This document shows positions 333 to 54,954 of a DNA stretch of 64,000 nucleotides, one piece after another. The number at the start of each line of letters is the position of its first letter. Position 1 is the stretch's first letter. This stretch comes from Porticoccaceae bacterium (GTDB lineage Bacteria; Pseudomonadota; Gammaproteobacteria; Pseudomonadales; Porticoccaceae). The notes beneath the pieces were generated by a model. The model did not search any database. It worked only from the letters and a program-made list of their open reading frames with translations, and was not told the origin of the DNA. The DNA lies in NCBI GenBank assembly GCA_021773435.1, contig JAJFKC010000010.1:62001-126000 (forward strand), written 5' to 3'. Position numbers and translations under genes: made by a program.

Positions 333-1592
333 ATGCCGAACCTCCTGGATACCGTAAAACCATGGCTTATCGTTAGCGGACAGTTTCTCAGGCATCTAGC
401 CCACGGATATAAGACTGACGGTTGTCGTGAGAGTGCGGCGGCACTGACCTATATGACGTTGTTTGCGGTGGTGCCGTTAATGACATTGATGTATGCCATG
501 TTCTCCATAATTCCTTCCTTCCAGGGTTTGGGTGAGCAGGTTGAACAGCTGCTATTTGAAAACCTGATTCCACAAAGCGGGTTTGAGGTGCAGCAATATC
601 TGCGCGATTTTTCCGGTCAGGCGCGATCGCTGGGCACGGTGGGCGGTTTTATTTTGGTCATCACGTCCTATTTGATGCTGACCAATATAGAGAAAACATT
701 TAATCGAATTTGGGGAACGGTTGGTGGTCGTCGTGGCCTGCCAGGCTTTTTGTTGTATTGGGGGGTGTTGAGTTTTGGTCCCTTGCTGGTTGGTGCCGGT
801 TTGATCATGCACACCTACCTGTTGTCCCTGCAGTTGATGGTCGATGAGCTGGACTCATTGGGTATCACCGCTTTGTTGTTAGAATATTTGCCCTGGTTAA
901 TGACCTGGGTCGGCTTTACCTTGCTATTCGTGGCGATGCCCAATTGCCGGGTAGTCAGGCGATATGCCATTGTCGGCGGTCTTTTTACCACCGTGTTATT
1001 TGAACTGGCGAAAGGTGTGTTTGGCCTGACGGTGACAAACTCTAGTTACCATACAGTGTATGGTGCTTTTGCTATCGCGCCGCTATTCCTGTTCTGGATT
1101 TACCTGTGCTGGATGATTATTCTCGGCGGAGCAGAGCTGGTGCGTTCAATGGAGACATTCGACACCGCCGCTGCCGGTAAGCGAATACCCGATCTGATAG
1201 CGTTAATCCTAATCTGCGCGGAATGTTTGCGTCGTCAGCGAAAGGGTGACACGGTCAGTGATCGAGATATGATCGGCTTCGGATTCCATCAGGAGCAATG
1301 GCGCAAATTGCGCACACTGATGTTAGCGAATCAGGTGCTAGTCACAAGTGACCACAATACCTATGTGTTGGCCCGCGACCCCACGCTGCTAAGTGTGTGG
1401 GATCTGAACCGTTTGCTAGATGGACCTAACCAGAGCATTGGTTTAGGTAATCACGTTTTCGCCGGTCATTACCCATGGTATGGCAAGCTGGAACAAATGC
1501 TTGGTGATGCCGGTCAAAGCACACAAGCTTTATTCGACATTTCCTTACAGGAGTTATTTGATGAGCAGGCCAACGCTGATTCAAAAAAGTAG
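333..1592 (+). CDS. yihY: YihY/BrkB family inner-membrane protein
   Basis: A 419-residue protein of the YihY (virulence factor BrkB) family. The N-terminal 280 residues hold about six hydrophobic helices, including segments near AALTYMTLFAVVPLMTLMYA, FLLYWGVLSFGPLLVGAGL, MTWVGFTLLFVAMP and APLFLFWIYLCWMIILGGAE. The family signature SSYHTVYGAFAIAPLFLFWIY is present. The last 130 residues are soluble and fit the cytoplasmic winged-helix-like tail of longer family members. Its molecular role is not established; it was once misnamed ribonuclease BN. The next gene starts inside its 3' end (32-bp overlap), so the two are probably translationally coupled. Confidence 0.88.
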   Translation: MPNLLDTVKPWLIVSGQFLRHLAHGYKTDGCRESAAALTYMTLFAVVPLMTLMYAMFSIIPSFQGLGEQVEQLLFENLIPQSGFEVQQYLRDFSGQARSLGTVGGFILVITSYLMLTNIEKTFNRIWGTVGGRRGLPGFLLYWGVLSFGPLLVGAGLIMHTYLLSLQLMVDELDSLGITALLLEYLPWLMTWVGFTLLFVAMPNCRVVRRYAIVGGLFTTVLFELAKGVFGLTVTNSSYHTVYGAFAIAPLFLFWIYLCWMIILGGAELVRSMETFDTAAAGKRIPDLIALILICAECLRRQRKGDTVSDRDMIGFGFHQEQWRKLRTLMLANQVLVTSDHNTYVLARDPTLLSVWDLNRLLDGPNQSIGLGNHVFAGHYPWYGKLEQMLGDAGQSTQALFDISLQELFDEQANADSKK

Positions 1593-2049
1593 CATATTAA
1601 ACTTGTGCGTGGTCGTGGTCGCAGCGCTGCTATCAATGGTTAGCTGTACACCTTCAGATCAATCAGAATCGATTCTGATTGATGGACCGGTAGCATTGGC
1701 AGACTGGCACGGCAAAGTGGTGTTTATAAATTACTGGGCGGAATGGTGTCATCCCTGCCGAACAGAAATTCCGGAGCTAAACGCCTTTGCCGAGCAAAAT
1801 ATTGAAAACGTCAAAGTGTTGTCTGTGAATTTTGACGGTGTTAGTGGTGAGGCTTTGTCCGATCAGGTCGCCGCCCTGGGAATAACGTTTGACACTTTGC
1901 TTGAAGATCCGCGCGAGCTATTGGCTGCCCCGCCCAGTGTCGCGTTGCCTGAAACTTTGGTGGTAAATCGAGACGGCAAGTTACATCTGGTTCTGCTTGG
2001 GCCGCAGACCATAGAGAGTCTTAATGAAGTGCTGGCGGGTGTGCCCTGA
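1561..2049 (+). CDS. TlpA-like thioredoxin-fold lipoprotein
   Basis: A thioredoxin-fold protein of 162 residues from the ATG at 1561. I prefer this start to an in-frame ATG at 1480 because CAGGAG precedes it at good spacing and it puts a signal peptide at the N-terminus (MSRPTLIQKSSILNLCVVVV...). The signal ends in a lipobox-like LSMVSC, suggesting a membrane-anchored periplasmic lipoprotein. The redox motif is WAEWCHPC (CxxC), followed by the TlpA/ResA-type layout (EIPELNAFAEQN, VLSVNFDG, PPSVALPETLVVNRDG). The family reduces periplasmic disulfides, often in cytochrome c maturation. The actual partner is not shown here. Confidence 0.85.
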   Translation: MSRPTLIQKSSILNLCVVVVAALLSMVSCTPSDQSESILIDGPVALADWHGKVVFINYWAEWCHPCRTEIPELNAFAEQNIENVKVLSVNFDGVSGEALSDQVAALGITFDTLLEDPRELLAAPPSVALPETLVVNRDGKLHLVLLGPQTIESLNEVLAGVP

Positions 2050-2123: not shown

Positions 2124-4163
2124 ATGATGATGATGGGAGCGATTGCTGTGACTGCTGATCTTGATATGGCTAATAAAACCAACGGTATAATTTCGTTGAT
2201 TCAACTGGATGACCTTGCGCCGGGGTCAATGGCAGGGGTTAATGCCAATGGCGTTGACTTGGTGGTCATTAATACGGGCAGTGAAATAAACGTATTTGAG
2301 GGTCGCTGTCCTCATATGGGTACCTTATTGAGTGAAGGTGATCTGGAGTTTGATCAGGTGGTCCAGGGTCAGGTGGTTCAGGCCCAGTTAGTTTGTCGTG
2401 CCCATCAATGGCGTTTTGATTGCGCGACTGGACAGGCCATCGGCGATAAAAATAGTTGCCTTGCCAAATTACCAGTACAACTTAGCGAAATAGCGGTGCT
2501 GGCTGACATTTCAGATATTCAAAAGCTGGCAGACGACCATCGTCCGGTAACTGCGGTGACAGATGCTGGGCGCAATAACGAAGCTTTGTCTGACGACGAC
2601 GCTGTGGCGAATGCCGAATTATCCGGATTCAGAGGTGCTGATCAAGTAGTGGGCGACTCTGTCATCAAAGCGATCGATGAGCTACCCGGCCCTAAAGCCT
2701 GGCCACTGGTAGGCAGTCTATTTAGCATCAACCGGCGTGCTTTTCACTCAAGCCTGGAGCGTTGGGCAGATGAGTTTGGTTCTATATATAGAGTTAAATT
2801 AGGCGCGCAATCTATAATTGTGGTGTCGGATGCACCATTGGCGAATGCGATTCTAAAGGCGCGACCAGATGTATTTAGAAGGAATAGCCAGCTCGAAGTA
2901 GCCAGTGTCAGCGACATCAATACTCACGGTTTGTTTATGGCTGAAGGCCAGCGGTGGCGTAAGCAACGTCCGGTCATCATGCAATCGCTGGATACTCGCC
3001 ACCTTAAACAGTTTTTCCCTCTGCTAGTGGACGTCACCGACCGCTTGCTGAGACGGTGGCAATCGAGTACCGGTGAGGCTATTGACGTCCAGTCAGACTT
3101 GATGCGGTTTACAGTGGATGTCACCACTTCATTGGCTTTTGGGCAAGATATTAATACCCTCGAATCAGATGGCGACATTATTCAGGAGCATCTCGATAAA
3201 TTGTTCCCGATTGTTCAACGCCGGTTGCTAACGCCGTTTCCTTATTGGCATTATTTTTTATTACCTGCCGATAGAGAAGCAGAGAAGTCTGCCGCCATCG
3301 TTTATGACGCGGTAAAGACGTTTATTGCCGAGGGCGAAAAGGAGCTTAATAATAACCCCGCCCTCATTAACAATCCGCAAAATTTGCTACAGTCTTTATT
3401 GGTTGCGGTGGCCAACGACGAGGTTGGCGGGGCTAATCTGTCCGGCAAGTTCAGTGGCAAGTTCAGTGGCAAGTTCAGTGACAAGGAAGTCGCAGATAAC
3501 GTGACAACCATGCTCCTGGCAGGCGAAGATACCACGGCTAATTCCCTTGCCTGGACGATTTATTTTTTGGTCAAATTTCCAGAAATACAGGACAAGCTGC
3601 GTGATGAAATTGTTGCTGTGCTGGGAGGTGAGTCTCTATCGGCTTTTGAGCAGATCAAAACCATACCTTATCTCGATGCAGTGATACATGAGTCCATGCG
3701 CCTGAAGCCGGTTGCGCCAATAAATGGTGTTGAGGCCCTTGCCGATTTTTCTTATGGTGAAGTTAGCTTTAAACAAGGTGAGACGGTAATCGTGCTAGCC
3801 AGGGTGATGGCGATGAACGACAAAGATTTTGATAAGCCGAAAAAATTTAGACCCGAGCGATGGTTGGGTAAAGAAGAGGTCAGGCAGGCTGGTAATATGG
3901 ATCAGACTGGCAGTAGTAATGCTGATTACCAGCGTCAGCAAAACAGGCAGGTAAATCAAAGAGCGTTTATTCCTTTCGGATCGGGGCCGCGATTGTGCCC
4001 TGGTCGTAGCCTGGCGCTACTTGAGATGAAAATGGTGCTGGTGATGATTCTGCAAAACTTCAATATTCGGTCAAGTGTGGATTTAGATAATGTTCAGGAG
4101 GACTTCAGCTTCACTATGAGTCCGAAAGGCTTAAAAGTCTCGTTCACACCACCTGGCGACTAG
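2124..4163 (+). CDS. Rieske [2Fe-2S] domain - cytochrome P450 fusion protein
   Basis: A single 679-residue frame joins two redox domains. Residues about 20-130 are a Rieske ferredoxin domain with CPH (C62, H64) and CRAHQWRF (C91, H94), the Cys/His pairs that bind a Rieske cluster. After a linker of about 50 residues, a complete P450 begins near residue 187 (DELPGPKAWPLVGSLFS). It carries the I-helix oxygen-activation motif AGEDTTAN, the K-helix ExxR motif (ESMRLKP) and the heme-binding loop FGSGPRLCPGR with proximal Cys 625. The Rieske domain presumably passes electrons to the heme, though it could also serve another role. No ferredoxin reductase gene is adjacent. The start is uncertain: four ATGs from 2124 lack a ribosome site, whereas a GTG at 2148 has GGGAG eight bases upstream. 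A 12-bp minisatellite encodes repeated SGKF just before the I-helix. Confidence 0.9.
   Translation: MMMMGAIAVTADLDMANKTNGIISLIQLDDLAPGSMAGVNANGVDLVVINTGSEINVFEGRCPHMGTLLSEGDLEFDQVVQGQVVQAQLVCRAHQWRFDCATGQAIGDKNSCLAKLPVQLSEIAVLADISDIQKLADDHRPVTAVTDAGRNNEALSDDDAVANAELSGFRGADQVVGDSVIKAIDELPGPKAWPLVGSLFSINRRAFHSSLERWADEFGSIYRVKLGAQSIIVVSDAPLANAILKARPDVFRRNSQLEVASVSDINTHGLFMAEGQRWRKQRPVIMQSLDTRHLKQFFPLLVDVTDRLLRRWQSSTGEAIDVQSDLMRFTVDVTTSLAFGQDINTLESDGDIIQEHLDKLFPIVQRRLLTPFPYWHYFLLPADREAEKSAAIVYDAVKTFIAEGEKELNNNPALINNPQNLLQSLLVAVANDEVGGANLSGKFSGKFSGKFSDKEVADNVTTMLLAGEDTTANSLAWTIYFLVKFPEIQDKLRDEIVAVLGGESLSAFEQIKTIPYLDAVIHESMRLKPVAPINGVEALADFSYGEVSFKQGETVIVLARVMAMNDKDFDKPKKFRPERWLGKEEVRQAGNMDQTGSSNADYQRQQNRQVNQRAFIPFGSGPRLCPGRSLALLEMKMVLVMILQNFNIRSSVDLDNVQEDFSFTMSPKGLKVSFTPPGD
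3444..3479 (+). repeat. In-frame 12-bp tandem repeat, three copies, inside the P450 domain
   Basis: The unit GGCAAGTTCAGT occurs three times without a mismatch at 3444-3455, 3456-3467 and 3468-3479. It encodes (GKFS)3, immediately before the I-helix. Because the unit is 12 bp, copy-number slippage keeps the frame and only lengthens or shortens a surface loop. Confidence 0.9.
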
Positions 4164-41990: not shown

Positions 41991-43073
41991 TCAGGCGGCC
42001 AGTAAAGACTGCCCAGGTAGCTTCGTCACTTCAGGCAACACTTTGCGGGCAAAGAGCCGTAAGCTTTTTTCGACGTCAGCATAGGGCATACCGCCATAGC
42101 TGAATACGCCGTTATAAGAACCTGCACCCGTGCGTTCGGTAAATTCCTTGATGGTTTCGAAGCATTTTTCTGGCGTACCCCAGACTTGGATGCTCATAAA
42201 AAACTTGATGGCATCCTCAACGCTTTTACTGACATGCTCTTGCATCGCGCCATAAGCCTCGTAGCCTTTGGTGTGTTTCAGGTGATCGCCTGCCATTTCG
42301 TAATGCTCGATAACGGAGCGGTAATAGCCACCGATGTATTTATAGGCCATTTCTTCAGCGCGGTCGGCGCTTTCGTCACAGAATGTCCAGCCAGCCAGGA
42401 TTGGCGGAGGCGCTTCAGTACCATTAACTTCAAGGAAAATCTTCCGGTAATCGGCCAATTCTCGATCCACATGGGCCCAGGGCTTTTGCGGAATAACCAG
42501 TATGCCAATACCAAGTTCAGCCATAATTTTTGATGATTCAGGTGATACGGCTGCCGCGTAGGTTCTGCCCTTAAAGCTTTTATACGGGGCTGGGCGGATG
42601 GCGCGACGGGCTTGTTGGACCTGTTTGCCGTCATACTCGCAAACGCCGGTTTCGAGACCTTCAAGAATCATCTTGGCGGATTCGGTGAAGTGGTCGCGGC
42701 TTACATTCATATCCTTGCCAAAACCTTCAAATTCAATCCGGCCCAGACCGCGGCCTATGCCGAGAATGACCCTCCCATTGGACATATTGTCGAGCATCGA
42801 GATTTCTTCAGCAACACGCATAGGGTCGTGCCAGGGCAGTACCACAACCATGGAACCCAGACCCAAATTCGGGTTGCGCCCAGCCCAGTAGGATAAATAT
42901 TGCATCACGTCTGGACACATAGTGTAATCGGTAAAATGGTGCTCTACACCCCAGATGGATTTAAAGCCCAATTCTTCGGCTAGATCACCCATACGGAGAT
43001 CATTGGTGTAGACCTCGTGATCAGTCATGTTGGGGTCGAGGCCCTGAAATATTAGCGATAATCCTACGTCCAT
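41991..43073 (-). CDS. LLM-class (luciferase-like) flavin-dependent oxidoreductase
   Basis: A 360-residue TIM-barrel flavin monooxygenase of the bacterial luciferase family. Typical segments are WGVEHHFTDYTMCPDVMQYL, NLGLGSMVVVLPWHDPMRVAEE, MSNGRVILGIGRGLGRIEFEGFG and the late GTPEKCFETIKEF. Family members use reduced FMN or F420 to hydroxylate, or insert oxygen into, diverse substrates; the sequence does not say which. It is the last gene of the minus-strand run led by the SDR array, 174 bp after the sixth SDR, with GAGGAC ahead of the ATG. Confidence 0.9.
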   Translation of the reverse strand: MDVGLSLIFQGLDPNMTDHEVYTNDLRMGDLAEELGFKSIWGVEHHFTDYTMCPDVMQYLSYWAGRNPNLGLGSMVVVLPWHDPMRVAEEISMLDNMSNGRVILGIGRGLGRIEFEGFGKDMNVSRDHFTESAKMILEGLETGVCEYDGKQVQQARRAIRPAPYKSFKGRTYAAAVSPESSKIMAELGIGILVIPQKPWAHVDRELADYRKIFLEVNGTEAPPPILAGWTFCDESADRAEEMAYKYIGGYYRSVIEHYEMAGDHLKHTKGYEAYGAMQEHVSKSVEDAIKFFMSIQVWGTPEKCFETIKEFTERTGAGSYNGVFSYGGMPYADVEKSLRLFARKVLPEVTKLPGQSLLAA

Positions 43074-43247: not shown

Positions 43248-44012
43248 TTATATGGCTAAGGTCCAGCCGCCATCAACGACCATGATTGCACCAGTAATAA
43301 AGTCTGAAGCGCCGCTCGCCAGCAAAATAGTTATGCCCTGAAAGTCCTCTGGCATGCCGTGGCGGCCCACGGGCGTTCTGCTCACCACATAGTCAACGGC
43401 TTTGGTTTTATTGGGGCCAAAGCAGGGCACCATTTCAGTGTGAACCAGGCCGGGTAGCACGGCATTGACATGAATGTTGTGTTTCGCCCAGCCCTGAGCG
43501 AGGCTTTGGGTCATATGGTCCATGCCACCCTTGGCGGCGGCGTAATGGGTCAGTCGGCCAAAACCCATTTGTGTGATCACTGATCCGATATTGATTATTT
43601 TGCCACCACCCACTTTGACCATTTCAGGGAAGCAGGCCTTACTGGTGAGAAAACATGAAGTTAAATTGATGGCGATGAAGTTGTTCCACTCTTCCAGTGT
43701 CGTCTCTTCTGCCAGGATGCCCCAACTGATGGCGGCATTATTGACCAGAATATCTATCCGGCCAAAGTGGGCGACAGTCTCACTCACCATTCGACTAACA
43801 TCATCTTCAAGCGATACGTCGGCCTGAATACCCAGGGCATCGGCGCCGCCGTCTTTAAGAACCTGGACTGCGTTATCGATTTTGTCCTGATTACGGCCGA
43901 CGATAGCTACTTTGGCACCGGCAAGCGCCAGGCCCTTAGCGATGCCCAGACCGATACCGCCGTTGCCACCGGTAATGATGGCGACTTTATCTGCAAGGTT
44001 GAATAATTCCAT
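43248..44012 (-). CDS. SDR family oxidoreductase (array member 6)
   Basis: A 254-residue classical short-chain dehydrogenase. The start at 44012 (MELFNLADKVAIITGGNGGI) aligns with the other five array members; the frame extends 28 residues upstream without similarity. It has the cofactor glycine motif TGGNGGIGLG, NNAAIS, the catalytic Ser in INIGSVITQ and YAAAK. GRN after the second strand points to NADP(H). It is the most 3' of six tandem paralogs and is separated from member 5 by 239 bp with a hairpin, so it may be partly uncoupled. Confidence 0.92.
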   Translation of the reverse strand: MELFNLADKVAIITGGNGGIGLGIAKGLALAGAKVAIVGRNQDKIDNAVQVLKDGGADALGIQADVSLEDDVSRMVSETVAHFGRIDILVNNAAISWGILAEETTLEEWNNFIAINLTSCFLTSKACFPEMVKVGGGKIINIGSVITQMGFGRLTHYAAAKGGMDHMTQSLAQGWAKHNIHVNAVLPGLVHTEMVPCFGPNKTKAVDYVVSRTPVGRHGMPEDFQGITILLASGASDFITGAIMVVDGGWTLAI

Positions 44013-44173
44013 AGGCGAGGTGTTTATTTTTATGGAGAAGTTATTGGGGTTATCGTTGAAGTATTGAATCAAGGTGAGCAAGGAGGAGCGAGGCATTACG
44101 ATCGGTGCCCGCTTTTGCTTCGATTACTTTAGCGAGCCTGAGCGCAACAATCTTTACCATGACAACCTTAGCA

Positions 44174-44207
44174 GAGGGATCAAAAAAACGCTATTTTCTG
44201 ATCCCTC
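44174..44207. terminator. Perfect 9-bp hairpin between SDR members 5 and 6
   Basis: GAGGGATCA (44174-44182) pairs with TGATCCCTC (44199-44207) across 16 bases in the 239-bp gap between the SDR genes. There is no T-run directly after the stem on the minus strand, so it could be an attenuator, processing site or operator instead of a terminator. Confidence 0.4.
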
Positions 44208-44251
44208 GTTATTATTTTTGCTAAGTAGTGTAGCTATTAAATATGCATCGA

Positions 44252-45019
44252 CTAGATAACCAACGAAAGTCCGCCGTCCATAACAATAATAGAACCAGTT
44301 ATAAAGTCGGAAGCAGGGCTGGCCAGTAGAATTGACATACCATACCAGTCTTCTGGCACACTATATTTCCTGACCGGCGTTTTCTTGACGATGCTGTCGA
44401 CCAGCCTGTTTTTCTTTGGCCCTTCACAGGGCATCATTTCAGTATCAACCAGGCCAGGCAGCAGCGCGTTTACATGAATATTGTGCTTGCCCCAACCCTG
44501 GGCCAGACTCTGAGTCATATGATCCATGCCACCCTTGGCTGCCGCGTAGTGAGATAGCTTGCCAAAACCCAGTTTGGTGACAATAGAACCGACATTGATG
44601 ATCTTGCCACCACCCGCTTCGACCATATGAGGAAAACAGGCTCTGCAAGTCAGGAAACAGGAGGTCAGGTTGTTAGTAATGAAATTATTCCATTGATCCA
44701 GGGTCATCTTCTCAGTGGCAATACCCCAGCTTATTGCAGCGTTGTTGACCAGAATGTCGATGCGGCCAAAATGTTCAGCGGTTTTTGCGACCATGTTATT
44801 GACCTGTTCTTCGCTGCCGACATCACAGGATAAGCCGATGGCATCGGCACCCTGGTCTTTAAGCTCCGCAACGGCGCGGTCAATTTTTTCCTGATTGCGA
44901 CCAGCTATGGCCACTTTGGCACCGGCCATAGCAAGACCTTTAGCCATACCCAGGCCCAGCCCACCGTTACCGCCAGTAACAATGGCTACCTTACCCGTAA
45001 TATCAAACTTGTCGTTCAT
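44252..45019 (-). CDS. SDR family oxidoreductase (array member 5, type B)
   Basis: A 255-residue classical SDR with TGGNGGLGLG, NNAAISWG, the Ser of INVGSIVTK and YAAAK. It is most similar to member 3 (45900-46667), with roughly 86 percent identity by eye, forming the type-B pair. Its distinctive features are CDVGSEEQV and TNNLTSCFLTCRACFP with extra cysteines, and a KKTPVRKYSVPEDW stretch that departs from the other copies. It follows member 4 after 51 bp, with GGAGAAGG before the ATG. The substrate is unknown. Confidence 0.92.
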   Translation of the reverse strand: MNDKFDITGKVAIVTGGNGGLGLGMAKGLAMAGAKVAIAGRNQEKIDRAVAELKDQGADAIGLSCDVGSEEQVNNMVAKTAEHFGRIDILVNNAAISWGIATEKMTLDQWNNFITNNLTSCFLTCRACFPHMVEAGGGKIINVGSIVTKLGFGKLSHYAAAKGGMDHMTQSLAQGWGKHNIHVNALLPGLVDTEMMPCEGPKKNRLVDSIVKKTPVRKYSVPEDWYGMSILLASPASDFITGSIIVMDGGLSLVI

Positions 45020-45070
45020 TAACCTTCTCCGGAGTGTGTATGCGGATTGCCTGTTTAATAGAAACTGACG

Positions 45071-45844
45071 TTATATTATTGATACGGTCATACCGCCGTC
45101 GGCGACAATGATAGAGCCGGTGATAAAGCTTGATGCTTCGCTGGATAACAGTATCGAAATGCCCTCAAAGTCTTCCGGCATACCGTAACGGCCCACCGGC
45201 GTTTTTTTCTCGATGTAGTCAACTACCGGGCCAATCTTGTTGGGCCCAAAGCAGGGCATCATTTCGGTATGCACCAGGCCAGGTAGCAGGGCATTGACCT
45301 GAATATTATCCTTACCCCAGGCGCAGGCCAGGCTTTGAGTCATATGATCCATGCCACCCTTGGCCGCCGCGTAATGCACCAGCTTGCCAAAACCTTTATT
45401 GGTGGTAATGGCCGAGCCGACATTGATGATCTTGCCACCACCGGCCTTGACCATTTCGGGATAACAAGCTTTGGCACAGAGCCAGCAAGATGTGAGATCG
45501 ATGGCAATAAACTTGTCCCACTCTTCCAGGGTCATTTTCTCGGGAGGAATGCCCCAGCTAATCGCGGCATTGTTAAACAATATATCGACTCGACCCAGTT
45601 GATCGGCAGTTTCTTTGACCATACGATTAACATCGTCTTCGCTGGATACATCGGCCTGAACGCCGATGGCCTTTGCTCCCAGGGCCCCCATTTCAGCGAC
45701 GGCCTTGTCGATTTTTTCCTGATTGCGGCCCACTAGTGCCACGGCGCAGCCTTCCGAAGCCAGGCCTTTGGCAATGCCCAGTCCTAGACCGCCGTTACCG
45801 CCGGTGATAATTGCGACCTTGCCGGTCAGATCAAAAAATTTCAT
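45071..45844 (-). CDS. SDR family oxidoreductase (array member 4, type A)
   Basis: A 257-residue classical SDR (TGGNGGLGLG, FNNAAISWG, the Ser of INVGSAITTN, YAAAK). It is nearly a copy of member 2 (46766-47539): I count about 12 differences in 257 residues. The type-A proteins share a one-residue insertion (ITTNKGFG) and Cys-rich segments (SCWLCAKACYP; SLACAWG). GGAG precedes the ATG. Members 4 and 5 together form a block duplicated as members 2 and 3. Confidence 0.93.
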   Translation of the reverse strand: MKFFDLTGKVAIITGGNGGLGLGIAKGLASEGCAVALVGRNQEKIDKAVAEMGALGAKAIGVQADVSSEDDVNRMVKETADQLGRVDILFNNAAISWGIPPEKMTLEEWDKFIAIDLTSCWLCAKACYPEMVKAGGGKIINVGSAITTNKGFGKLVHYAAAKGGMDHMTQSLACAWGKDNIQVNALLPGLVHTEMMPCFGPNKIGPVVDYIEKKTPVGRYGMPEDFEGISILLSSEASSFITGSIIVADGGMTVSII

Positions 45845-45899
45845 GCTTTGTCTCCAGTTAATTCTTCATTACAGTTTTCAGTAGCTAGTGTGGTGTTAG

Positions 45900-46667
45900 T
45901 TAAAGGGACAGACAAACACCCCCGTCCATGACTATTATTGAGCCGGTCATAAAGTCAGACGCGGGGCTTGATAGAAGGATGGAGATGCCGTAAAAATCTT
46001 CTGGCACACCATACTTACCCACTGGCGTTTTCTTTACTGCGATGTCCACCAGTCTGTTTTTGTTCGGCCCGGAACAGGGCATCATCTCGGTATCGACCAG
46101 ACCGGGTAATAAGGCGTTGACCTGAATATTATGCTTGCCCCAACCCTGGGCCAGACTCTGGGTCATATGATCCATACCGCCTTTGGCCGCGGCGTAATGG
46201 GACAGCTTGCCGAAACCCAGTTTGGTGACAATTGAGCCAACATTGATGATCTTGCCACCGCCGGCTTCGACCATATGGGGGAAGCAGGCCCGGCAAGTTA
46301 AAAAAGTGGAAGTGAGATTGTTGGTAATAAAATTGTTCCACTGGTCAAGGGTCATTTTCTCGGTAGCGATACCCCAGCTTATTGCAGCGTTGTTAACGAG
46401 AATATCGATGCGACCAAAATGTTCAGCAGTGGTGGCGACCATACGATTTACATCGTCTTCACTCCCTACATCGCAGGACACGCCGAGAGCTTCAGCGCCC
46501 TGGGCTTCGAGTTCTTTTACAGCCTTGTCAATTTTTTCCTGATTGCGGCCTACTACAGCGACTTTAGCTCCAGCGAGGGCGAGGCCCTTGGCGATACCGA
46601 GTCCGAGTCCACCGTTTCCACCGGTGATGATGGCAACTTTGCCGGTTATATCAAACTTTTTGTTCAT
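45900..46667 (-). CDS. SDR family oxidoreductase (array member 3, type B)
   Basis: A 255-residue classical SDR with the full motif set (TGGNGGLGLG, NNAAISWG, Ser in INVGSIVTK, YAAAK, GRN after strand 2). It is the type-B partner of member 5, differing mainly in the first 90 residues and the last 40. The centre (about residues 95-195) is almost unchanged, suggesting gene conversion or constraint there. GGAG precedes the ATG; the gap to the next array gene is 55 bp. Confidence 0.93.
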   Translation of the reverse strand: MNKKFDITGKVAIITGGNGGLGLGIAKGLALAGAKVAVVGRNQEKIDKAVKELEAQGAEALGVSCDVGSEDDVNRMVATTAEHFGRIDILVNNAAISWGIATEKMTLDQWNNFITNNLTSTFLTCRACFPHMVEAGGGKIINVGSIVTKLGFGKLSHYAAAKGGMDHMTQSLAQGWGKHNIQVNALLPGLVDTEMMPCSGPNKNRLVDIAVKKTPVGKYGVPEDFYGISILLSSPASDFMTGSIIVMDGGVCLSL

Positions 46668-46765
46668 TTACTTACTCCGCATTGAATACTTAACGTTTTG
46701 AGAGTGCTTAACAAATTAAGCGTTACGATTCTGATTGTTTTAGGTTCTGGCTGTTTTAAATGACA

Positions 46766-47539
46766 CTACATGATGGAGACGGATAAGCCGCCATCGGCAA
46801 CGATGATAGAGCCGGTGATAAAGCTTGATGCTTCGCTGGATAACAGTATCGAAATACCCTCGAAGTCGTCGGGCATGCCGTAGCGACCAACAGGGGCTTT
46901 CTTCACCGCGTAATCGACCAGTGGTCCGATCTTGTCGGGCCCAAAGCAGGGCATCATTTCGGTATGTACCAGGCCAGGTAGCAGGGCATTGACCTGAATA
47001 TTATCCTTACCCCAGGCGCAGGCCAGGCTTTGAGTCATATGATCCATGCCACCTTTGGCCGCCGCGTAATGCACTAGCTTGCCAAAACCCTTATTGGTGG
47101 TAATGGCCGAGCCGACATTGATGATCTTGCCACCACCCGCTTTAACCATTTCAGGATAACAAGCTTTGGCACAGAGCCAGCAGGACGTTAGATCAATGGC
47201 GATGAACTTATCCCATTCTTCCAGCGTCATTTTTTCTGGGGCGATGCCCCAACTGATGGCGGCGTTATTAAAGAGGATATCGACTCGACCCAGTTGATCG
47301 GCAGTTTCTTTGACCATACGATTAACATCGTCTTCGCTGGATACATCGGCCTGAACGCCGATGGCCTTTGCTCCCAGAGCCTCCATTTCAGCGACGGCCT
47401 TGTCGATTTTGTCCTGATTGCGGCCTACTAGTGCCACGGCGCAGCCTTCTGAAGCCAGGCCTTTGGCAATGCCCAGTCCTAGACCGCCGTTACCGCCGGT
47501 GATAATTGCGACCTTACCGGTCAGATCAAAAAATTTCAT
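46766..47539 (-). CDS. SDR family oxidoreductase (array member 2, type A)
   Basis: A 257-residue classical SDR almost identical to member 4, including the cysteine-rich SCWLCAKACYP stretch. Differences cluster in the substrate-proximal C-terminal part (GPDKIGPLVDYAVKKAP against GPNKIGPVVDYIEKKTP), the loop that usually shapes substrate choice in SDRs. AGAGG precedes the ATG. The gap to member 1 is 54 bp; a 98-bp gap follows to member 3. Confidence 0.93.
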   Translation of the reverse strand: MKFFDLTGKVAIITGGNGGLGLGIAKGLASEGCAVALVGRNQDKIDKAVAEMEALGAKAIGVQADVSSEDDVNRMVKETADQLGRVDILFNNAAISWGIAPEKMTLEEWDKFIAIDLTSCWLCAKACYPEMVKAGGGKIINVGSAITTNKGFGKLVHYAAAKGGMDHMTQSLACAWGKDNIQVNALLPGLVHTEMMPCFGPDKIGPLVDYAVKKAPVGRYGMPDDFEGISILLSSEASSFITGSIIVADGGLSVSIM

Positions 47540-47593
47540 TGAATACCTCTGAGTTTTTATTGGAGCAAGCTTTCACAAGATTGTACGGAAAGA

Positions 47594-48361
47594 TTAAATC
47601 GCCAGAGATAAACCACCATCGACAACAATGATCGATCCGGTAATAAAGTCGGAGGCCTCGCTGGACAACAAAATGGAAATACCAGCGAAGTCATCCGGTG
47701 TGCCATGACGTTGACACGCAGATTTATCAATAGCGTATTGAACCAGAGGTTGGCGATCACCTGGGGGGCCAACAGGCATCATTTCGGAATCCACCAGTCC
47801 GGGTAATACCGCATTGACCTGAATATTTTGGGGACCCCAGGCCCGGGCCAGGCTCTGGGTCATATGATCCATGCCGCCTTTGGCGGCTGCGTACTGAATC
47901 AACTTGGGATGGCCGAGCTTGGTAACGATTGAACTGATATTAATGATTTTGCCGCCACCAGCTTTGACGAATTCTGGATAACAGGCCTTGCTGGTTAAAA
48001 AGCAGGAAGTCAGATCGATAGCAAGAAACATATTCCACTCTTCGAGGGTCATTTCTTCCGGGCGTATGCCCCAACTGATGGCGGCATTGTTTACGAGGAT
48101 GTCGATGCGGCCAAAACGTTCTGCAGTCTCCGCAACCATGCGGTTAACATCGTCTTCCAGTGAGACGTCGGCCTGCACAGCCAGCACTGTCGCGCCGCCC
48201 GCTTCCAGGTCCGCCGTGGCAACCTTAAGTTTGTTAGTGTTTCGGCCAACGATGGCGACTTCAGCGCCGGCCGCAGCCAGGCCTCGTGCGATACCCAAGC
48301 CGAGACCGCCATTACCGCCGGTGACAATGGCTACCTTTCCAGTTAAATCAAATATTTTCAC
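47594..48361 (-). CDS. SDR family oxidoreductase (array member 1, promoter-proximal)
   Basis: A 255-residue classical SDR opening the minus-strand array, started by GTG at 48361 (MKIFDLTGKVAIVTGGNGGL). It has NNAAISWG, the Ser of INISSIVTK and YAAAK. It is more diverged than members 2-5: its substrate loop reads MMPVGPPGDRQPLVQYAIDK and lacks the PCxGP motif shared by the others. The 722-bp intergenic region with 22-bp tandem repeats lies directly upstream and probably holds the array promoter. Confidence 0.92.
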   Translation of the reverse strand: MKIFDLTGKVAIVTGGNGGLGLGIARGLAAAGAEVAIVGRNTNKLKVATADLEAGGATVLAVQADVSLEDDVNRMVAETAERFGRIDILVNNAAISWGIRPEEMTLEEWNMFLAIDLTSCFLTSKACYPEFVKAGGGKIINISSIVTKLGHPKLIQYAAAKGGMDHMTQSLARAWGPQNIQVNAVLPGLVDSEMMPVGPPGDRQPLVQYAIDKSACQRHGTPDDFAGISILLSSEASDFITGSIIVVDGGLSLAI

Positions 48362-52653: not shown

Positions 52654-53757
52654 ATGAAGATTAAAGCTGCGGTATTGCGTGCCGTTGATCAGCCGTTTGA
52701 AATTGAAGAACTGGAACTTGCACCACCCAAAGAGGGTGAAGTGCTGGTTAAAACTGTCGCAAGTGGTATTTGTCACAGTGACTATTCTGTTCAACACGGT
52801 ATTTTGCGCTCCCCTTTTCCTGTGGTGCTCGGCCACGAGGGTGCGGGCATCGTAGAAGAAGTTGGCCCCGGCGTATCCAATGTAAAACCTGGCGATAAAA
52901 TTATCGCCTCACTCAGCCCTAGCTGTGGCAAATGCCGGATGTGTAAAGAATCAAAAGAGTATTTGTGTTCACAGATGGGCAAACTGCTGAATGACTGTAC
53001 CCAACTGGATGGCACCACCCGGCACAAGACCGCCAGTGGTGAAGATGTCTATGCCCTGTGCGGCGTCGGTTCCTTTGGCGAATACATGGTCATGCCCGCG
53101 GGTTCGGCCATCAAGGTTGCCGATGACACCCCACTCGACAAAGCCTGCCTGATTGGCTGCGGCGTGACGACTGGCACGGGCGCTGCGCTTAATACCGCCA
53201 AGGTGCAGTGGGGCGAATCATGCGCCGTCATCGGCTGTGGCGGGGTCGGGCTCTCCATCCTGCAGGGTGCGCGCATCGCTGGCGCCAGCATCATCATCGC
53301 CATCGATCCGATGGAAGAGAAGCGCGAGCTGGCGGTGGAGCTGGGCGCTACTCATACCATCAACCCGTTTGAGGAAGACGCTGAGGCCAAAGTCAAGGAA
53401 ATCACCGGCGGTGTCGGTGTTCATTACGCGTTTGAGGCCCTGGGCCGAGTAGAAACCATGTCCCAGTGCTGGGGCATGCTCAGGCCCACCGGTAAGGCCA
53501 TTATCGTGGGTGTGGCGTCGCTCGACCAGTCGGTGAAGATCCCTGCTGCCGGCCTCCTGGCCGAATACGAAATCCAGGGTTCCTGTTATGGCTCGTCGTC
53601 GCCCAAGCGCGACATTCCCCGTTTTGTCGAACTGTACAAGTCGGGACAGCTGAAACTCGATGAAATGATCACCCAGCGGATCGGGCTTGGGGACATCAAC
53701 CGTGCGTTCGAAGAAATGGGGCGCGGCGAAGGTGCTCGCTCAGTGATCATGTATTAA
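52654..53757 (+). CDS. Zinc-dependent alcohol dehydrogenase (copy 1)
   Basis: A 367-residue medium-chain dehydrogenase of the class III-like group. Catalytic zinc ligands are the Cys of SGICHSDYS and the His of VVLGHEGAGIVEEVG. The structural zinc site has four Cys (CGKCRMCKESKEYLC). The NAD-binding motif is IGCGGVGLSILQGARIAGA. AGGAGG precedes the ATG. It is paralogous to the next gene. Base composition changes within the gene: the first 350 bp resemble the neighbours, while the rest is clearly richer in G/C at third positions. Confidence 0.94.
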   Translation: MKIKAAVLRAVDQPFEIEELELAPPKEGEVLVKTVASGICHSDYSVQHGILRSPFPVVLGHEGAGIVEEVGPGVSNVKPGDKIIASLSPSCGKCRMCKESKEYLCSQMGKLLNDCTQLDGTTRHKTASGEDVYALCGVGSFGEYMVMPAGSAIKVADDTPLDKACLIGCGVTTGTGAALNTAKVQWGESCAVIGCGGVGLSILQGARIAGASIIIAIDPMEEKRELAVELGATHTINPFEEDAEAKVKEITGGVGVHYAFEALGRVETMSQCWGMLRPTGKAIIVGVASLDQSVKIPAAGLLAEYEIQGSCYGSSSPKRDIPRFVELYKSGQLKLDEMITQRIGLGDINRAFEEMGRGEGARSVIMY

Positions 53758-53850
53758 TGATATGAGGCATTGAAATAATTTATTTGAGTGAACATTTCGC
53801 CATTTTGTTAATGGGCGGGTTCGCGAACTATAAGATTTGGAGAACATAGC

Positions 53851-54954
53851 ATGAAGACAAAAGCAGCAGTAATGTACGAAGTCGGGAAACCTCTGGTTAT
53901 CGAAGAACTCGAGCTGGAAGGCCCAAAGGCCAATGAGATATTGATCAAATACACCGCGAGCGGTATCTGCCACAGCGATTATTCCTTCCGCGACGGCGTT
54001 ATCGAAAGTGAATTCCCCGCGGTGCTGGGTCACGAGGGCGCCGGAGTGGTGGAAGAGGTTGGCCCCGGTGTCACCGATCTCAAACCGGGCGATCACGTTA
54101 TCGCCTCGCTGACCCCAGCCTGCGGCAACTGCCTGTTCTGCCTGGAACGCAAGCCGTTCATGTGTGTCGAGATGGGCAAGGTCATCTGGCAGGGTTGCCT
54201 GCCGGACGGCACTACACGGCTGAAGAACTCGAAAGGCCAGGCGATTCGCCAGTTGGTGGGCGTCGGCACCTTTTCCGAACGGGCGGTGATCCCCGCAGGC
54301 AATGCCATCAAGATCGATGACAACGCGCCTCTGGATACCGTGTGCCTGATCGGTTGTGGCGTCACCACCGGTGTGGGTGCCGCCCTGAACACTGTAGATA
54401 TCAATCCCGGTGACAGTTGTGCGGTGATCGGCTGCGGCGGCGTAGGGCTTTCCATCATCCAGGGCGCACGCATTGCCGGTGCCACAATGATCATTGCCAT
54501 CGACCCCGTACCCCAGAAGCGCGAGCTGGCGATGAGCTTGGGTGCCACCCACAGCATCGATCCCACCGATGTCAATCCTGTTAAAGAAGTGCGCAATATT
54601 AGCCGTGGTGGTGTGCACTATGCTTTCGAAGCCCTTGGCTTGAAAGCGACCATTGAGCAGGCCTGGTCTATGCCACGGGCCACCGGTACGGCGGTGATCG
54701 TCGGCGTGCCCTCGGGCGACACCGAGATCGATTTGCCGGTGCTGGGCTTCTTTGGTGAGAAGCATTTCAAGGGCTCCGCCTATGGCACCTCGGTTCCGTC
54801 CAAGGATATTCCCAAGTTCGTTGATCTGTACATGAAGGGCGACCTCAAGCTCGATGCCATGATCACCAAACGCATCCAGCTCGAGGACGTCAACGACGCC
54901 TTTGATGAAATGAGCCGAGGTGAAGGTGCACGTTCGGTCATTATGTACGACTAG
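53851..54954 (+). CDS. Zinc-dependent alcohol dehydrogenase (copy 2)
   Basis: A 367-residue paralog of the preceding gene, with matching sites: catalytic SGICHSDYS and VLGHEGAGVVEEVG, structural CGNCLFCLERKPFMC, and NAD motif IGCGGVGLSIIQGARIAGA. It is G/C-rich throughout, unlike the surrounding SDR and esterase genes, so a long minus-strand shadow frame appears inside it. The two copies may take different alcohols; the lid and substrate regions differ (KVIWQGCLPDG against KLLNDCTQLDG). A strong terminator follows 23 bp after its stop. Confidence 0.94.
   Translation: MKTKAAVMYEVGKPLVIEELELEGPKANEILIKYTASGICHSDYSFRDGVIESEFPAVLGHEGAGVVEEVGPGVTDLKPGDHVIASLTPACGNCLFCLERKPFMCVEMGKVIWQGCLPDGTTRLKNSKGQAIRQLVGVGTFSERAVIPAGNAIKIDDNAPLDTVCLIGCGVTTGVGAALNTVDINPGDSCAVIGCGGVGLSIIQGARIAGATMIIAIDPVPQKRELAMSLGATHSIDPTDVNPVKEVRNISRGGVHYAFEALGLKATIEQAWSMPRATGTAVIVGVPSGDTEIDLPVLGFFGEKHFKGSAYGTSVPSKDIPKFVDLYMKGDLKLDAMITKRIQLEDVNDAFDEMSRGEGARSVIMYD

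Follow-up and report, generated by a model that had tools for sequence, protein, structure and literature searches.

Cytochromes P450 are sorted by the redox partner that feeds them, and the ten-class scheme, as set out in the main text of two reviews, holds no Rieske partner in cis (PMC11173547; PMC9112060). A gene in the window (the whole stretch of 64,000 nucleotides from a Porticoccaceae bacterium that was analysed) raises the question of whether such a partner exists in nature. The original prediction read this gene as a Rieske ferredoxin domain joined to a full-length P450 in one uninterrupted frame. We found a single open frame of 679 codons lacking internal stops, and its product contains two Pfam domains, with nothing further at an E-value of 0.001. 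The Rieske domain (PF00355) scores 47.9 bits against a cut-off of 20.3 (E = 1.2e-12) and the P450 domain (PF00067) scores 315.6 bits against 22.8 (E = 7.3e-94, full-length), such that both lie far above chance in the same chain. The predicted Rieske pairs C62/H64 and C91/H94 all fall at the residues given for them, as do the P450 motifs AGEDTTAN (466–473) and ESMRLKP (523–529) and the heme ligand Cys 625; the ExxR residues are E523 and R526. There is no break in frame between the domains, and the frame of the linker is confirmed by fusions in other genomes. The natural fusion of a Rieske ferredoxin to a P450 is therefore real. Modelled at full length, the protein reaches a mean pLDDT of 79.5 and a pTM of 0.81, with pLDDT below 50 at residues 1–18, 141–178 (the linker), 433–446, and 587–609. 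Features of the gene and its surroundings are collected in Table 1.

Table 1. Positions of the fusion gene, its domains and ligands, and its upstream neighbours (numbered from the first nucleotide of the window; A3 is a 21-row protein alignment that includes the window protein).
Feature	Position	Strand	Basis or remark
YihY/BrkB-family membrane protein gene	333..1592	+	Upstream syntenic neighbour; Pfam
TlpA/ResA-like thioredoxin-fold gene	1480..2049	+	Next gene upstream, 74 bp away; tentative start codon
Rieske-P450 fusion gene	2124..4163	+	679 aa; both domains by Pfam; orthologues elsewhere
Rieske [2Fe-2S] domain, T4moC type (residues 25–109)	2196..2450	+	Pfam PF00355; PDB sequence and fold matches
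First cluster ligand pair, C62-P-H64	2307..2315	+	25/25 readable Rieske rows
15-bp tandem duplication (x1.9), loop between ligand pairs	2354..2382	+	In-frame
Second cluster ligand pair, C91-R-A-H94, then W96 and F98	2394..2405	+	Ligands in 25/25 readable rows
Linker (residues 131–186)	2514..2681	+	Poorly conserved; pLDDT <50 at 141–178
Cytochrome P450 domain (residues 188–674)	2685..4145	+	Pfam PF00067; fold matches
12-bp in-frame repeat x3.5 (GKFS x3), P450 loop	3444..3485	+	Not in other 20 rows of A3
Heme thiolate C625 (FGSGPRLCPGR)	3996..3998	+	24/24 rows with both parts readable

By both sequence and fold, the Rieske part is of the T4moC type. Its closest solved sequence is T4moC (PDB 1sjg; E = 6.1e-11, the best of 11 PDB sequences) and, when modelled alone (pLDDT 93.3), its top PDB fold matches were 4p1b_H and 4p1c_H, which are T4moC complexed with its hydroxylase. 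The four ligands C62, H64, C91, and H94 are kept in every readable Rieske row, and W96 and F98 are invariant across the 21 rows of A3. In the window protein, the loop that separates the ligand pairs is 10 residues longer than in the other 20 rows, and its 15-bp duplication is found in none of them. The position of F98 is occupied by Phe in dioxygenase ferredoxins and by Tyr in respiratory Rieske proteins, the dioxygenase ferredoxins having reported potentials of about −150 mV (PMC1847435). On this residue, the fused domain would fit the low-potential Rieske class at about −150 mV. It also lacks the disulphide cysteines that respiratory Rieske proteins possess, a feature that goes with the low-potential class. 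A plasmid search with the Rieske part returned 29 records. Six of the eight stand-alone matches that we examined are ferredoxins in toluene-4-monooxygenase gene clusters, the remaining two being one NirD and one protein within a propionate cluster. The P450 part, for its part, matches the heme domains of P450s in the PDB when the predicted structure is used for a fold search (best E = 1.6e-24).

The original prediction called an N-terminal Rieske partner unusual; the partner is real but it is not a one-off, and recurs in distant bacteria. An orthologous fusion is present in 4/58 relatives searched (G002, G016, G026, and G033; 40–65% identity by aligned piece). When contigs from species genomes were scanned with two short patterns taken from the Rieske part, 27 loci emerged; these patterns derive from close kin of the window and other Rieske motifs would escape them. 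Twenty-three of the loci match over both the Rieske and P450 parts and four over the Rieske part only. The 23 include records of the four relatives, together with one locus that ends at a contig end (L050) and one interrupted by an N run and a frame break (L051). Among the other 19, which include isolates, are Cupriavidus numazuensis, Paraburkholderia sp. NMBU_R16, and two Luteimonas species, as well as ten metagenome-assembled genomes (MAGs) labelled Myxococcales, Kofleriaceae, Nannocystaceae, Labilithrix, or Deltaproteobacteria. The rest are also MAGs (one Pseudomonadales, two Hyphomicrobiales, one Anaerolineae, and one Armatimonadetes). Labels of MAGs are fallible in general, and the lone Chloroflexota and Armatimonadota assignments are the least secure. 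A plasmid search added two records covering most of the query, from Methylorubrum extorquens AM1 and Persicobacter sp. JZB09, and Pfam places both domains in the Methylorubrum, Persicobacter, Cupriavidus, and Paraburkholderia proteins. The chains found in this way come from isolates and MAGs of Pseudomonadota, from Myxococcota-type MAGs (ten), from single Chloroflexota and Armatimonadota MAGs, and from a Bacteroidota plasmid.

Counting the window, the Rieske and P450 parts share a single open frame in 24 rows, among them L035, which contains an N run. Left out of the counts were L051, L053 (where the Rieske end lies at a contig end), and L054, L056, and L057 (Rieske domains in other proteins); L050 was counted for the Rieske ligands only and L046 is absent from row set A4. 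The P450 subfamily itself is uncommon, being found at E < 1e-70 in 6/390 genomes of an order sample and 4/398 of a phylum sample. With at most three candidates scored per genome, the window's own was the only fused protein in either sample, alongside five unfused proteins in the order sample and three in the phylum sample. The best matches in a viral structure library were P450s without a Rieske domain, as were those in three phage records. Two Persicobacter plasmids (L059 and L062) carry sister P450s, one with the Rieske domain and one without, and form a natural pair for asking what the domain does.

Both domains of the fusion are under purifying selection. Across the four pairs with usable dS (L052 features in two), dN/dS was 0.28–0.33 for the Rieske domain and 0.14–0.30 for the P450 domain. 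For the linker, which spans 15–22 codons in these pairs, the three computable values were 0.23, 1.21, and 1.16, while the pair formed by the window and L031 was saturated throughout. The two domains also diverge together: pairwise Rieske identities co-vary with those of the P450 across the 24 fused rows (Mantel r = 0.77, with 0/2000 permutations as high).

How the fusion arose can be approached from the same rows. The idea that an assembly chimera or annotation artefact has united two genes is hardly credible: apart from the window's genome being a draft of 49 contigs, nothing was found to favour it, and recurrence of the same join in independent assemblies, including isolates and the complete megaplasmid of Methylorubrum extorquens AM1, refutes a chimera. 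A more serious contest sets a single fusion with later losses against several separate joinings of similar Rieske genes to this P450 subfamily. A Rieske tree (93 columns) was built from 24 fused domains and 14 stand-alone proteins; in it, 23 of the fused domains form one group apart from all the stand-alones, with moderate support of 88 on a branch that is unstarred; a second build recovers the same group with support of 90/91. The unstarred status of this branch leaves room for repeated fusion, as does the Persicobacter Rieske domain, which is placed weakly among the T4moC-type stand-alones. The P450 tree points the same way in that fused and unfused proteins interleave, requiring four changes of which at least two are forced by starred branches. 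Set against this are the grouping of the 23 domains in both builds and the topology tests, which reject neither a single clade of all 24 fused Rieske domains, Persicobacter counted (AU p = 0.075), nor a single fused P450 clade without Persicobacter (AU p = 0.094). Because the 23 domains group apart, and taking the P450 tree together with this, we favour a single fusion followed by losses and transfer, with Persicobacter perhaps representing a second fusion; repeated independent fusion appears the less likely course, if a substantial minority view.

We next considered where the electrons might come from. The original prediction saw no reductase gene adjacent to the fusion, and this held as far as we tested. 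Two types of reductase served as tblastn queries, namely the Reductase_C reductase and the NqrF-like protein of the window's genome; neither matched the window or any of 26 regions surrounding fused genes (flanks of up to 8 kb, and far less on short contigs), and Pfam analysis of 30 neighbour genes of the fusions revealed no dedicated reductase. The PF14759 and PF00175 matches in the window's genome sit on contigs other than that of the fusion. A single protein carries PF00175 and is NqrF-like, judging by its length and neighbours. The one PF14759 protein is a 421-aa flavoprotein (Pyr_redox_2 plus Reductase_C) on contig C36, encoded in a cluster alongside a BphC-like dioxygenase and a stand-alone Rieske ferredoxin of 104 aa; of the reductase types searched for, it is the best candidate for an electron donor to the fusion. 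A Reductase_C protein is present in 11/26 fused genomes or records, and is distributed unevenly among them: 6/6 for the close gammaproteobacteria, 2/2 each for Burkholderiales and Hyphomicrobiales, 1/10 (weakly) for the Myxococcota group, 0/2 for Luteimonas, and 0/1 each for Anaerolineae and Armatimonadetes. This rules out Reductase_C as a universal partner. Because it was not found in 15/26, a set containing many MAGs and two plasmid records that say nothing about their chromosomes, the reductase would not be of one type everywhere.

The unfused members of the P450 subfamily give a further view of possible donors. In G206 (L096:8649-11328), an unfused P450 is followed 65 bp on by a separate 116-aa Rieske gene and then by an LCM-type methyltransferase gene, all on one strand. 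In the Rieske tree, the G206 protein falls beside L084, a stand-alone Rieske protein that the window's genome encodes, and apart from the fused domains. No Rieske gene was found near the P450 in the other 14/15 unfused loci (three of which have flanks of about 1.5 kb) and so the subfamily can evidently use other donors. The window's genome itself contains 19 Rieske-domain matches, on contigs C3, C4, C36, C46, and others. Thirteen of them lie in frames of 384–487 aa, like the alpha subunits of Rieske oxygenases, and the genome is likely to be rich in ring-hydroxylating oxygenases.

Gene neighbourhoods provided leads on the substrate rather than an assignment. The neighbours of the window fusion identified by Pfam are YihY, TlpA-like, and GGDEF-EAL genes. 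A TlpA-like ORF is similarly placed in L024, L025, and L026; it is a syntenic neighbour rather than a known redox partner. Homologues of YihY occur in 5/26 fused loci. Genes for sppA, an arsC-like protein, yihY, and a TlpA-like protein precede the fusion in the window's genome (G000), G002, G026, and G033, and a hda-like gene is also present in G000, G002, and G033, with neighbours named by Pfam in the window's genome and by likeness in the other three. This housekeeping setting says little about the substrate. Elsewhere, the fusion lies beside cytochrome c, DUF1329, and DUF1302 genes (G016), or directly downstream of a terpene synthase gene that ends 154 bp before it (Paraburkholderia sp. NMBU_R16; L037:380-1591). 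The terpene synthase family PF19086 is found in only 3/26 fused genomes or records, and the window protein scores far below the cut-offs of the NCBIfam terpenoid-P450 models. A lipid or terpenoid substrate is a lead only. A common pathway did not emerge from the comparison, in which the only strong recurrence is gammaproteobacterial synteny; besides this there are three neighbour clusters of three loci each, one being a short-chain dehydrogenase by sequence. The comparison used simple ORF calling, which is unreliable at high GC and missed the fused gene itself in 7/26 loci.

Other gene runs were observed along the way. An unfused P450 relative in G397 (L097:5334-11829) lies amid AMP-binding, 3-beta-HSD-like, and two KAS III-like genes, an arrangement that we take to be reminiscent of olefin synthesis. 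Within the window, six consecutive tandem short-chain dehydrogenase genes encoding 255–282 aa (43251-48361, minus strand) adjoin a luciferase-like monooxygenase gene (41994-43073), and a pair of neighbouring zinc alcohol dehydrogenase genes, each encoding 367 aa, lies at 52654-54951 (plus strand).

On the basis that both domains occupy one frame, keep their ligands, evolve under purifying selection, and co-vary in identity, we think it probable that the gene encodes a two-domain monooxygenase in which a separate reductase feeds the cis Rieske cluster and this in turn feeds the heme. The N-terminal [2Fe-2S] domain would accept single electrons from a flavoprotein reductase that is a separate, NAD(P)H-dependent protein, and would pass them within the same chain, across a flexible linker, to the C-terminal P450 heme. 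The P450 would then activate O2 and oxidise a hydrophobic substrate. Insertion of the cluster and heme, electron transfer in cis, use of an external reductase, and monooxygenase chemistry are all steps that we infer. The split pair in G206 and the DoxA precedent in trans described below are hints that a P450 can run on a Rieske protein. The strongest objection is the physical one of potentials, those of resting P450s lying near −300 mV. A Rieske cluster at about −150 mV would be a weak donor to such a heme, and transfer would therefore depend on bound substrate or on a heme of unusual potential.

Two readings would retain a Rieske domain with a different task. It might be functional yet not feed its own heme, serving instead as a ferredoxin in trans for other oxygenases or mainly docking a reductase or other protein. 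The abundance of Rieske and oxygenase-like matches in the genome (13 of the 19 being oxygenase-like) is consistent with this, as are the long, low-confidence linker of the window protein and the existence of subfamily members lacking the domain. We nevertheless regard it as improbable: the Rieske domain co-diverges with its P450, the covalent link is conserved in distant bacteria, and the Rieske type is allied to T4moC and not to the dioxygenase ferredoxins. Slightly less probable still is that the cluster senses redox state, oxygen, or NO and so gates the P450, with electrons arriving from another ferredoxin. Occurrence of the subfamily without the domain could be accommodated here too, and neither a reductase nor a further ferredoxin was found adjacent to the fusion. 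Both the ligands and the conserved shell around them, however, match an electron-transfer ferredoxin, and most of the stand-alone relatives examined (the six noted above) are ferredoxins of monooxygenase systems. The two-domain monooxygenase is thus the reading that we carry into the comparison with known systems.

If this reading is true, the fusion would show that a heme-thiolate enzyme can be driven in cis by a Cys2His2 cluster, whose potential would be about −150 mV should it resemble those of its relatives. P450s and the diiron or Rieske oxygenases would then be linked by a shared kind of electron carrier, and biocatalysis would gain a new scaffold that is partly self-sufficient. The broader proposal, on which we are almost evenly divided and which we offer tentatively, is that these proteins represent a further redox class of P450. 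A T4moC-type ferredoxin would have been captured, probably on a single occasion, ahead of one P450 subfamily, and have spread through Pseudomonadota and Myxococcota, perhaps also reaching Chloroflexota and Armatimonadota, with the domain lost in some lines and maybe remade in Persicobacter. Among the matches listed in a search of openly licensed literature, judged by titles and the starts of abstracts, none describes a natural Rieske-P450 fusion, although this leaves absence from print unproven. The word Rieske does not occur in the main text of either class review (PMC11173547; PMC9112060). The original prediction of an undescribed architecture therefore stands for the literature searched.

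The class reviews describe P450s with a fused ferredoxin (class V), a fused flavodoxin (class VI), a PFOR-like reductase (class VII), and a CPR-like reductase (class VIII) (PMC11173547; PMC9112060). Proteins of classes VII (CYP116B) and VIII (CYP102A1) resemble the fusion in that the P450 is joined covalently to its redox module. They carry a complete reductase (PMC11173547; PMC9112060), whereas Pfam finds none in the window protein. Class V, first found in Methylococcus capsulatus, is closer: there too a P450 and a ferredoxin share one chain and a separate ferredoxin reductase is needed (PMC11173547; PMC9112060). The window protein likewise unites a P450 and a ferredoxin in one chain devoid of a reductase domain, as judged by Pfam, and differs in that its ferredoxin is an N-terminal Rieske domain of another fold, with two Cys and two His ligands. 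In the class V example, named CYP51FX, the ferredoxin is C-terminal and its cluster is Cys-ligated; the window protein has no such C-terminal domain and its P450 part is not assigned to CYP51. Because a ferredoxin domain is present and a reductase domain absent, the protein is not self-sufficient, and its likeness is to class V and not to classes VII and VIII.

One P450 is already known to take electrons from a Rieske protein in trans. DoxA of Streptomyces peucetius works with the Rieske-type ferredoxin SpFdx4 and the reductase SpFdR3, so that here as well a Rieske-type ferredoxin feeds a P450; the three are separate proteins, however, and SpFdx4 is likened in that account to BphA3 and TDO-F, not to T4moC (PMC12979805). 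T4moC is the closest solved relative of the fused Rieske domain in sequence and fold, and shares its CRAHxW motif. It is itself a stand-alone protein of 111–112 aa that serves a diiron hydroxylase and not a heme enzyme (PMC4200526), and the fusion does not lie within a diiron toluene monooxygenase operon. What appears to be new here is a class V-like chain that begins with a T4moC-type Rieske ferredoxin.
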